From Bacillus sp. NEB1478 (GTDB taxonomy: Bacteria; Bacillota; Bacilli; Bacillales; Fictibacillaceae), in assembly GCF_031582965.1 (NCBI RefSeq), contig NZ_CP134049.1, forward strand, positions 2,728,001 to 2,792,000: a stretch of 64,000 nt of DNA, read 5' to 3'. Numbering within the stretch: position 1 is the first letter of the stretch; each line of letters opens with the position of its first letter. The notes under the pieces were generated by a model. It ran no database searches, was not told the origin of the DNA, and saw only the letters and a list, made by a program, of their open reading frames with translations. Both the position numbers and the translations under genes were made by a program. This document shows, in pieces, positions 50,651 through 54,402 of the stretch.

Positions 50651-51922
50651 ATGAACAAACAAGAAAGCAGCTATAGATGGGTGGTATTTGGCACCGTCTT
50701 ATTTGCTTACTTTTTAATTGTGAGCCAAAGAACAGCTCCAGGGCTTATTACCGATCAATTAATGAAGGATTTTCATGTATCAGCTTCCACAATAGGTCTA
50801 TTGAGCAGTATTCAATTTCTGGCATACGCAGGATTACAGATTCCGGTTGGTCTCTTAGCTGATAAATATGGGCCTAATCGATTCCTAATTATAGGTACAC
50901 TTCTTAATGGCTTAGGAAGCCTCCTCTTCAGCCTTGCTCCGAATGAGTATCTTTTAATTTTTTCTCGTTTATTAGTGGGAATTGGAGATTCCATGATTTT
51001 TGTCAACTTGGTTATTATTTTAAGTCAATGGTTTAAGGTAAAGGAATTTGTAGGATTGTTAGGAGTCGTTTCATTGGTCGCAAGCTTTGGGTCACTATCA
51101 GCTACTGTTCCTTTTTCCTATTGGATTTCACTTACAGGCTGGAGATCGCCATTCCTTAGTATTGGTATTATTTTAATGTTATCTTCCTATCTTCTTTATA
51201 CCGTTCTTGTTGCAAAACCAAAACAAATCTTTAAGGATGATGATTCCAAATTGAAGAAGGAATCTGTTGAGGACAGACCAAGTGTTTGGTCCATACTGCG
51301 CAGAATTTTTACTACTCGGCAAGCTTTGGCAACATTCCTTTGCCACTTTGGGGTGGTTGGTACATATGTTGGATTTATAGGTTCCTGGGGAGTTCCATAT
51401 GGTATCCACGTGTTTGACTTGTCGCGGTCTGAAGCAAGCCAGCTTATTATGTATGGTCTTTTTGGCGCCATGATTGGCGGTCCTTTAATCAGCTGGATTA
51501 CAAGCAGATTAGATTCGATAAAAAGGATCTATATCCTTATTCATATCGTTGTGTTTTTTAGTTGGATAGGACTGTTTTTGTCCGGCATAAAGCCATCTTT
51601 TATTATGGTAGTCATTTTACTGTTATTCATAGGTTTCGGAAATGGTGCGAGCTCCTTAACTTTTGCCGTCGTAAGAAAGTCCTTCCCGATGACAGAAGTA
51701 GGTGTTGCCGCAGGATTTGCCAATATGGGTGGGTTTCTAAGCGCGGTATTATTACCAAGTATTTTCGGAAGTGTACTCGATCTCTTTCCTCAGCATTCAA
51801 TAAATGCTGCCTATCATTATGGATTTATCATCCCTGTTCTCTTTTCTTTAATGGGACTGTTTGGCGTCATTTTAATAAAAGAGGAAAAAAAGAAAAACTC
51901 GAAAATATCACAAAAACAGTAG
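50651..51922 (+). CDS. 12-helix MFS transporter
   Basis: A 423-residue protein with twelve hydrophobic helices. Motif A is seen as GLLADKYGPNRFL near 72-84; LLVGIGDSMIFVNLVIILSQ lies in helix 4. It begins WVVFGTVLFAYFLIVSQRTAPGLI, like the NNP/cyanate-type or hexuronate-type carriers. The substrate is unknown. The gene 137 nt downstream is a GNAT on the same strand, possibly cotranscribed. Confidence 0.88.
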   Translation: MNKQESSYRWVVFGTVLFAYFLIVSQRTAPGLITDQLMKDFHVSASTIGLLSSIQFLAYAGLQIPVGLLADKYGPNRFLIIGTLLNGLGSLLFSLAPNEYLLIFSRLLVGIGDSMIFVNLVIILSQWFKVKEFVGLLGVVSLVASFGSLSATVPFSYWISLTGWRSPFLSIGIILMLSSYLLYTVLVAKPKQIFKDDDSKLKKESVEDRPSVWSILRRIFTTRQALATFLCHFGVVGTYVGFIGSWGVPYGIHVFDLSRSEASQLIMYGLFGAMIGGPLISWITSRLDSIKRIYILIHIVVFFSWIGLFLSGIKPSFIMVVILLLFIGFGNGASSLTFAVVRKSFPMTEVGVAAGFANMGGFLSAVLLPSIFGSVLDLFPQHSINAAYHYGFIIPVLFSLMGLFGVILIKEEKKKNSKISQKQ

Positions 51923-52059: not shown

Positions 52060-52512
52060 ATGAATATTAGGAAATTAAACATAGGTGAAAATCTTCCAAT
52101 GGAATTGTTGTTATTGGCAGACCCCTCTGAAGAGATTGTTAAGGAATATGTTAATAGGGGAGAATGTTTTATAGCAGAAAGTGAACAGAAGATCGTTGGA
52201 GTATATGTATTACTTCCAACAAGACCTGAGACAATCGAGTTAGTGAATGTTGCAGTAACAGAGGATCAACATGGTAGAGGTATTGGAAAACAGTTAGTTA
52301 TGAATGCAATTAACACAGCAAAGAAAAAAGGCTACAAAACAATCGAAGTTGGTACTGGAAACGCAGGCATTGGACAATTGGCTCTCTATCAAAAATGTGG
52401 ATTTAGAATTATTGGTGTTGATATGGATTTTTTCATTAAGCACTATCCAGAAGAAATTTATGAAAATGGTATACATTGCAGGGATATGATTCGACTCACT
52501 CAGGATTTATAG
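52060..52512 (+). CDS. GNAT-family N-acetyltransferase
   Basis: A 150-residue protein with an AGGAG ribosome site. Motif A VAVTEDQHGRGIGKQLVMNA near 67-86, then KGYKTIEVGTGNAGIGQLAL with motif B YQKCGFRIIGVDMDFF. Resembles YesJ/YjcK-type small GNATs. Downstream of an MFS gene, ended by a strong terminator. Confidence 0.88.
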   Translation: MNIRKLNIGENLPMELLLLADPSEEIVKEYVNRGECFIAESEQKIVGVYVLLPTRPETIELVNVAVTEDQHGRGIGKQLVMNAINTAKKKGYKTIEVGTGNAGIGQLALYQKCGFRIIGVDMDFFIKHYPEEIYENGIHCRDMIRLTQDL

Positions 52513-52646: not shown

Positions 52647-53210
52647 TTACTGAGTTAAGGCGTAAATACATGTGTCAGTAAGTCTTCTACCATCTGCGGA
52701 TAAATCTTCATTCTTCAAAATTCCTTCTAACTCAAATCCCAGTTTTTCAGGGATAGCCCTACTTTTATGATTGGTTGATTCACACCTGATTTCTATTCTT
52801 TTAAATTGGAATTGGTTTAGCCCAAAGTTCGTTAAACCTTTTAGTGCTTCAATCATATATCCATTCCCGCCAAATTTGGTATGAATCCAGTAGCCGATTT
52901 CACATTTCGGGATGTCCCAGCATATTCCTTGAATACTCGTTGTTCCAATATAATCATGACTATCTTTATGGAAAATTAGAAAACGAAAACTTTCTCTTTG
53001 TAAAAACTTCAGATGAGCTTCTCTTAAGTTAATTTCAGTTTCTTCTACAGAAGGAAGCGTTTGTGCAAATGGCAACCAGACTTTTAATTCGTTGAAGGAT
53101 TCTTTTATTGCTTTATTAACGATCATTCCATCCCCCGATTTTAAAGGTACCCGCAGTATTAATCTTTCAGTTTCTATTCGCATTGGAACTTCTAATAAAA
53201 TTGGATTCAT
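52647..53210 (-). CDS. RimL-like GNAT acetyltransferase under T-box control
   Basis: A 187-residue protein. It begins MRIETERLILRVPLKSGDG at residues 10-28; motif A GYWIHTKFGGNGYMIEALKG near 107-126 and motif B CESTNHKSRAIPEKLGFELE. AAAGGGG lies just ahead of the ATG. A complete T-box leader precedes it and no other gene lies between, so synthesis should rise when a particular tRNA (predicted Lys) is uncharged. Known: some RimL-like enzymes acetylate aminoacyl-nucleotide antibiotics of the microcin C type. Inference: defence against a compound that blocks lysyl-tRNA synthetase, or an amino-acid-linked function. Confidence 0.85.
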   Translation of the reverse strand: MNPILLEVPMRIETERLILRVPLKSGDGMIVNKAIKESFNELKVWLPFAQTLPSVEETEINLREAHLKFLQRESFRFLIFHKDSHDYIGTTSIQGICWDIPKCEIGYWIHTKFGGNGYMIEALKGLTNFGLNQFQFKRIEIRCESTNHKSRAIPEKLGFELEGILKNEDLSADGRRLTDTCIYALTQ

Positions 53211-53254
53211 TTGTTTTCCCCTTTCTCATGTCTTTCTTTATTTATTTTTAGACA

Positions 53255-53562
53255 ACAAAAAAACTCCCACCCCCAAGATCAATAATCTTGAGGACGAGAG
53301 TTGAACTATCGTGGTACCACCTCAGTTTGTTGATACATCACTATATCAACCTCTTCAGGTACAAAACATACCCTATCTTTATATCGGAAGAAACCGTCTT
53401 ATAATCCCTAATGTGTTTCATTAGCTTAATAAGAAGCTCCGAGACTTTTTTCGCTAAACTAATTATTACTCCTTTTCAGCAATATGGGAGCTCTCTGCTA
53501 ATAATTAATCGTTAGCTACTCTTCTCTTCAGCGCTTACATCGATATTTTCATTTTTCAGGTT
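53255..53562 (-). promoter_or_regulatory. T-box riboswitch leader, predicted lysine specifier
   Basis: Stem I: GAGA / TCTC base (GAGAAGAGTA side), GCTAA/TTAGC, TAATTATTA/TAATAATTA, the AG-rich bulge GCAGAGAG and CTCC/GGAG below an apical TTGCTGAAAA. On the 3' side of the specifier loop GAA is followed by AAA then A, so the codon read is AAA (Lys, at 53449-53447). The T-box core GAGGTGGTACCACG presents TGGT, matching an ACCA tRNA end. A competing terminator, ACTCTCGTCCTCAAGAT / GATCTTGGGGGTGGGAGT plus seven T's, follows. Confidence 0.85.
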
Positions 53563-53592
53563 AGTATACTCTAATACTATTAATATTGTCAA
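53563..53592 (-). promoter_or_regulatory. promoter of the T-box transcript
   Basis: TTGACA (53592-53587), 18-base spacer, TATACT (53568-53563) on the minus strand, a close sigma-A match. Confidence 0.85.
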
Positions 53593-53674: not shown

Positions 53675-54133
53675 TTACTTATGTATCATGTTTTTACACT
53701 TGATCAATCGCTGGTTTAACTCCCACAAGGCTGTTTTGTTGCTGTCCCATTTTAATAAGAATTGTGCTTCTTCATAAGTGGTCCACTTGTATAATCCATG
53801 TTCTTTCGAAAGGGAAAGATCTTTATTTTTGACCTCGACTCCAAAGGCATATTCCTTTAAGACAAACACCTCTTCTCCCCATAGAAAGCTTCCAACCACA
53901 TGTTCTACAGGTAACGATGAAGTAGTATCCAGTTGAAGAAAAGCAGAATCAGCTGCAATACCCGCCTCTTCAAATGCTTCTCGCCTAGCTGAATCTTCTA
54001 TTGTTTCCCCTTCCTCTCCTCCTCCAGCAATTCCTTGCCAATACCCTAGATCAGCTCTTTGAAAGATGGCAAATTTTATCGAGTTCTCTTCCATTAGATA
54101 AGGTAAAACTAAAACTTGATAAGCAGCTCTCAT
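53675..54133 (-). CDS. Nudix hydrolase
   Basis: A 152-residue protein. Nudix box at about 38-60: GGGEEGETIEDSARREAFEE then AGI, fully matching GX5EX7REUXEEXGU. Upstream strand VLVLPYLMEENSIKFAIFQR. Layout like the dATP pyrophosphohydrolase-type MutT relatives. Hydrolyses a nucleoside diphosphate linked to some group, cytoplasmic. Confidence 0.9.
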   Translation of the reverse strand: MRAAYQVLVLPYLMEENSIKFAIFQRADLGYWQGIAGGGEEGETIEDSARREAFEEAGIAADSAFLQLDTTSSLPVEHVVGSFLWGEEVFVLKEYAFGVEVKNKDLSLSKEHGLYKWTTYEEAQFLLKWDSNKTALWELNQRLIKCKNMIHK

Positions 54134-54311: not shown

Positions 54312-54402
54312 TTTTACTTTTTATCCACGGTCGCAGCCAATAATTCCACGTTATTTCTAATAATTCCACGTTAATTCCAATAATTCCACGTTAGCACTAA
54401 TT
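54312..54402 (-). repeat. GTGGAATTATTGG tandem repeat (copy E)
   Basis: Minus strand: CTAACGTGGAATTATTGGAA, TTAACGTGGAATTATTAGAA, ATAACGTGGAATTATTGGCT, GCGACCGTGGATAAAAAG, then AAATGACAGCTCCAAA. It begins two bases after the APH gene stop. Confidence 0.8.

Follow-up and report, generated by a model that had tools for sequence, protein, structure and literature searches.

Why would a T-box leader that reads a lysine codon stand in front of an acetyltransferase gene? This question is raised by a locus in a 64,000-nucleotide (nt) stretch of the Bacillus sp. NEB1478 genome (contig NZ_CP134049.1, positions 2,728,001 to 2,792,000; the whole stretch is called the window, and positions are those of the window unless stated otherwise). 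We believe that a canonical transcriptional T-box reading uncharged tRNA-Lys(UUU) controls a GNAT acetyltransferase, which most likely N-acetylates an inhibitor of lysyl-tRNA synthetase (LysRS), and we put the probability of this reading at about 55%. Its regulatory half, control of the GNAT gene by a lysine T-box, is supported as well as sequence data allow. G and L numbers below are our handles for genomes and loci.

A T-box leader precedes a single GNAT gene

All elements of the locus lie on the minus strand. A promoter-like site, TTGACA-18-TATACT (53592-53563), matches 11 of 12 consensus positions and is the best of seven such sites in the scanned stretch, for which shuffles give 4.4. It is followed by the T-box leader (RF00230, 53540-53287), which covers the full model (1-219) with 113.7 bits (gathering score 93, E 2.3e-24) and is the sole Rfam match reaching gathering score within the window. 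The leader terminator (53302-53262) contains 19 pairs and then a T-run, and the 60-nt piece holding it folds at -21.5 kcal/mol. One strand serves both structures: where the Rfam match ends (53287), the 3′ arm of the antiterminator doubles as the 5′ arm of this terminator. The GNAT gene (53210-52647) encodes 187 residues, with a ribosome-binding-site-like AAAGGGG, found by eye, 7 nt 5′ of its ATG (53224-53218). A second terminator (52633-52604), symmetrical and present on the plus strand too, closes the gene; four terminator-like sites were found in the scan, with 0.7 expected.

The upstream NUDIX gene on the same strand (53675-54133) stops short of the promoter and is followed by a terminator-like hairpin (53658-53641); the gene past the GNAT terminator (52060-52512) is on the opposite strand. 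Therefore, the GNAT transcript contains no other gene. A preliminary description of this DNA had proposed that promoter, T-box leader and terminator lead only into a GNAT gene, and this monocistronic layout is confirmed: neither a synthetase nor a transporter, either of which might have been the true target, is present in the transcript.

The specifier codon and the bulge match tRNA-Lys

The specifier region, GAA-A-AAA-G-UCUC-GGAGC, reads AAA (53448-53446) according to the covariance fit and a calibration of the register, and the T-box bulge is UGGU (53319-53316), the complement of the A73-CCA end of tRNA-Lys. The codons starting 4, 5 and 6 nt before GGAGC are AAG, AAA and AAA, every one a lysine codon. 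To calibrate the register, we counted by hand in the 17 further T-boxes of this genome (18 at E 0.001 including that of the window, 15 reaching gathering score), whose downstream genes were named by recognition of their translations. The codon fitting the downstream gene lies 5 nt before GGAGC in 15 of the 17, and 6 nt before it in L008 and L016. The specifiers are UAC for tyrS and chorismate synthase, UCC for serS, GUC for valS, AUC for ileS and ilvB, UGG for trpS, UUC for pheS, ACC for thrS, CUC for leuS, CGC for argS, CCU for proS and proC, GCU for alaS, UGC for cysE and GGC for glyS; the hisS leader reads GAC, an Asp codon, which we counted as fitting on the assumption of a hisS-aspS operon. 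None of these 17 T-boxes has a lysine specifier. Three tRNA-Lys(UUU) genes were found in this genome, ending in ...CTCACCA, and their A73 pairs with UGGU. The AAA specifier and the fit of UGGU to an ACCA tRNA end, both claimed earlier from the letters, are borne out, and no alternative specifier appeared in the covariance search.

The T-box and GNAT pair recurs across the order

Relatives of the leader were searched at the DNA level in 397 genomes of the order, with matches in 139. We read 110 of the listed places (L075-L184, that of the window included), leaving most of the weaker ones and at least one middling place in G376. Together with three plasmid leaders (L071-L073) and L066, these form a table of 114 rows; L066 was found by Rfam, and L143 and L157 by sequence reading and Rfam. 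The downstream targets are GNAT (20), class I LysRS (21), a second class II LysRS (20), MFS (37), glutaminyl-tRNA synthetase (GlnRS, 10) and DUF5662 (2). The remaining four are another GNAT (L160), a leader without assigned target (L179), a degenerate T-box without GNAT (L086) and an unrelated leader reading CAC (L181). Family models were run for the window GNAT, for two MFS proteins and for one protein each of GlnRS, class I LysRS, class II LysRS, DUF5662 and the other GNAT; BLAST clusters, motifs and inspection by eye served to sort the remaining proteins. The downstream gene is broken or cut in L088, L134, L158 and L169.

AAA is the specifier in 19 of the 20 GNAT leaders, the exception being L159, which has lost stem I. 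CAA (Gln) is found in both DUF5662 leaders and in 36 of the 37 MFS leaders by script, or all 37 by eye. A shift of one base to AAG was conceivable from the plasmid MFS leaders (L071-L073), as AAG stands one base on in both kinds of leader. We rejected this register because a single register gives CAA in 10/10 GlnRS leaders and AAA in 41/41 LysRS leaders, and because the bulge partly follows the specifier: it is UGGU in 61/61 GNAT and LysRS rows (including all 21 class I LysRS leaders, each with AAA) and UGGC in 35 of the 51 CAA rows. The match is imperfect, as the other 16 CAA rows, including 8 of the 10 GlnRS leaders, have UGGU, which pairs only by wobble with G73, the discriminator of tRNA-Gln in this genome (that of tRNA-Lys is A73).

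Units of AAA specifier, UGGU bulge and downstream GNAT occur in at least 18 of the 397 genomes, under 10 family codes (f1, f14, f21, f22, f30, f31, f34, f37, f40, f47); G283 adds a GNAT unit with a stem-I-less T-box. Besides the leader of the window, L112, L144, L154 and L168 reach the Rfam gathering score, while L114, L143 and L157 fall just under it (84.8-90.5 bits) and ten (L076-L083, L085, L096) were judged by alignment alone. A unit of this kind is also present in Alkalihalobacillus macyae DSM 16346 (L066, 103.1 bits). In L144, 437 nt separate the T-box core from the GNAT gene, compared with ~80-130 nt in most others. Full-text literature searches returned no report of a T-box and GNAT pair. 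The main text of TBDB, tables aside, has no mention of acetyltransferase or GNAT, and the main text of Wels et al. 2008 (PMC2494555), supplements aside, has acetyltransferase only once, in a reference title.

For most of the close GNAT relatives in the order, we found no T-box next to the gene. Among the 50 GNAT matches at E 1e-75 or better (46 genomes), at least 13 lie in AAA/UGGU T-box units, as counted by matching coordinates by hand, the T-box place for G140 and G129 not being among the matches listed. In the genus of the window, 17 of 18 genomes have GNAT relatives, and Rfam detects no T-box at 25 such loci other than that of the window, including L036 and L044 of the same genome. Nine of the 11 other genomes of this genus in the order sample carry such a leader before class I LysRS, one of these a gene fragment. 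In genus g26, class I LysRS with this leader was found in 9 of 13 genomes searched, one broken, and decayed T-boxes at 2 of 10 GNAT loci (L211, 29.7 bits; L213, 32.3 bits), with L216 likewise by eye. A replacement of lysK by the GNAT at a single site was looked for within the genus: in the compared stretches of the window's genome (G000), blastn synteny with G009 runs only as far as lysK, so that no clean empty site emerged.

Such decayed T-boxes, also seen in L159, the degenerate T-box of L086 and the many relatives without a T-box would suit an accidental capture, in which the leader is a leftover without a selected link to the GNAT. We regard this as very unlikely, since the window has the full set of specifier, bulge, promoter-like site and terminator, since the unit recurs in so many families, and since in the leader tree the window leader groups with 11 GNAT leaders of other families (100/97), apart from the lysK leaders of its own genus.

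Related leaders precede spare synthetases and transporters

The closest known system is the T-box of lysK, the class I LysRS gene of Bacillus cereus. According to Foy et al. 2010 (PMC2916919), depletion of lysine or of LysRS induces this leader as much as 120-fold, and uncharged tRNA-Asn does so in part; T-box LysRS genes are always second copies, are reported in only four species, and their rarity is called puzzling. The leader in the window would likewise be lysine-responsive and transcriptional and stands before a non-housekeeping gene, which is an acetyltransferase instead of a spare synthetase. Our table contains 41 LysRS-linked leaders.

Among 65 genomes selected because they carry such a leader, 63 contain a class II LysRS scoring 727-763 bits, and G280 and G309 have only partial ones. 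The T-box-linked enzymes score 501-529 bits for class II (19 genomes) and 333-425 bits for class I (19 genomes, the G131 copy interrupted by stops). In L158 (G002), the T-box precedes a class I fragment of 75 residues (76 bits), which is a spare LysRS in decay. In the genome of the window, the single class II LysRS (3834141-3835604) lies apart from all 18 T-boxes, and class I LysRS is absent, the best match reaching just 18.9 bits. A T-box GNAT and a spare LysRS occur together in 1 of 14 GNAT genomes tested (G392); as chance alone would give little overlap, this says nothing either way on mutual exclusion.

GlnRS follows a CAA T-box in ten Bacillales genomes (L115, L117, L120, L122, L133, L134, L139, L140, L156, L165; in L134 only a 148-residue frame was found). 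As GatA is present in all ten, this GlnRS seems to be a bypass that offers an alternative way of making Gln-tRNA. Two MFS proteins after CAA leaders resemble efflux pumps. A comparable case is BH0807 of Bacillus halodurans, also an MFS gene behind a T-box in Bacillaceae, given in the main text of Wels et al. as a lysine-specific permease with a Lys leader, whereas the MFS-linked leaders here read CAA. Related CAA T-boxes lie directly 5′ of MFS genes on Priestia and Peribacillus plasmids (L071 5001-5333, L072 2916-3235, L073 5001-5271), and on a Priestia megaterium plasmid a thrS gene is found ~3 kb from this unit. The DUF5662 proteins are those of L118 (PF18907, 129 bits) and L131 (by BLAST cluster).

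The GNAT resembles RimL and MccE in fold

The GNAT passes the gathering cut-off of PF13302 (RimJ/RimL-like; 81 bits against 25.4). Its best NCBIfam match is RimL, the ribosomal L7/L12 serine acetyltransferase (NF007539), which fails the cut-off with 49.7 bits against 184. The RimL type suggested earlier holds for family and fold; by the NCBIfam cut-off, the protein is not RimL proper. In model-based fold comparison, RimL and MccE are tied as best structural matches, with which it has the GNAT fold and the position of the catalytic Ser in common, at only 20-24% identity, and a shared fold shows no function. An ortholog of YdaF was considered and rejected, as 1nsl, which we take to be Bacillus subtilis YdaF, gives only 44 bits. 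Proteins 81-83% identical are found in B. rhizoplanae, B. pseudomycoides and two other Bacillus (P0002-P0005), and no relative in the viral contigs searched.

To our knowledge, neither MccE nor RimL is under T-box control. MccE is part of a producer operon. Both enzymes inactivate processed microcin C and other aminoacyl adenylates (PMC3817062, PMC4363471).

RimL acetylates ribosomal L12. The GNAT may accordingly be a protein N-acetyltransferase that tunes the ribosome, or some other protein, under a shortage of Lys-tRNA; RimL is a joint best fold and the best NCBIfam match, if under cut-off, and each of the other 17 T-boxes of the genome stands before a gene for a synthetase or for amino-acid biosynthesis, as far as recognised. 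We consider this starvation response unlikely, as we see no link of L12 acetylation to lysine here and MccE matches equally well. Slightly less probable is a role in lysine or polyamine metabolism, with acetylation of lysine, a lysine-derived polyamine or a lysine-analogue side chain for nutritional balance: SpeG matches lie ~5 Z units below RimL and MccE, and acetylating lysine under lysine shortage would be counter-productive.

TacT and AtaT are GNAT toxins that acetylate charged tRNA. A toxin of this kind acting on Lys-tRNA is hardly credible here: the transcript has no partner gene, the fold is RimL-like (in a comparison without GNAT toxin families), and induction of such a toxin by uncharged tRNA would be self-defeating. 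Translation-inhibiting GNAT toxins do exist (AtaT2).

A possible defence against inhibitors of lysine charging

Induction in this organism, the substrate and resistance are what we infer. When charging of tRNA-Lys drops, the uncharged tRNA would pair with AAA and UGGU and stabilise the antiterminator, and the GNAT gene would be transcribed. The enzyme may then N-acetylate a small-molecule LysRS inhibitor, such as a lysyl-adenylate-like or lysine-analogue antibiotic, which would restore charging and switch the gene off again. We favour this defence because the leader lineage is common to spare LysRS genes, because the nearest fold matches of the GNAT are enzymes that inactivate synthetase inhibitors, and because sister leaders precede GlnRS and efflux-like MFS proteins. 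The preliminary description had proposed a self-defence circuit against LysRS inhibitors or aminoacyl-nucleotide antibiotics, which gains indirect support from the first two of these points. The presence of this leader family before spare LysRS genes elsewhere points to inducible protection from compounds that block the charging of tRNA-Lys.

Several points weigh against it. No natural LysRS inhibitor active against bacilli is known to us, and a literature search for one showed none. The T-box GNATs do not form a single clade (p-AU 4e-6, with 6 changes on the best tree; L065 and L068, too short, and L011 and L019, copies of the window, were left out), so gain or loss of the link happened repeatedly; several relatives, namely L159, L211 and L213, have a decayed T-box. 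The catalytic Ser is no marker of a resistance enzyme, being kept in 49/49 GNAT relatives without T-box, two of them in the genome of the window. A common fold is no proof of a common substrate.

More broadly, and tentatively, as something short of an even bet, one Bacillales T-box lineage with AAA or CAA specifiers may sense synthetase inhibition as a portable module and drive exchangeable resistance effectors: a spare LysRS of either class, GlnRS bypass, efflux-like MFS (on plasmids too), DUF5662 protein and MccE/RimL-like GNAT. If so, natural inhibitors of Lys-tRNA and Gln-tRNA formation await discovery in these habitats. The common leader lineage before an MccE/RimL-like acetyltransferase turns the puzzle stated in Foy et al. 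(PMC2916919) into a testable idea, the Lys T-box as an alarm for LysRS inhibition, with which a biosensor and a candidate resistance gene set for finding natural LysRS inhibitors would be at hand.

Neighbouring features

The gene at 52060-52512 encodes a second, different GNAT; it is convergent to the T-box GNAT gene and follows an MFS gene (50651-51922). Between the NUDIX and APH-like genes (54339-54394), AATAATTCCACGTTA occurs three times, ~20 bases apart, as seen by eye.
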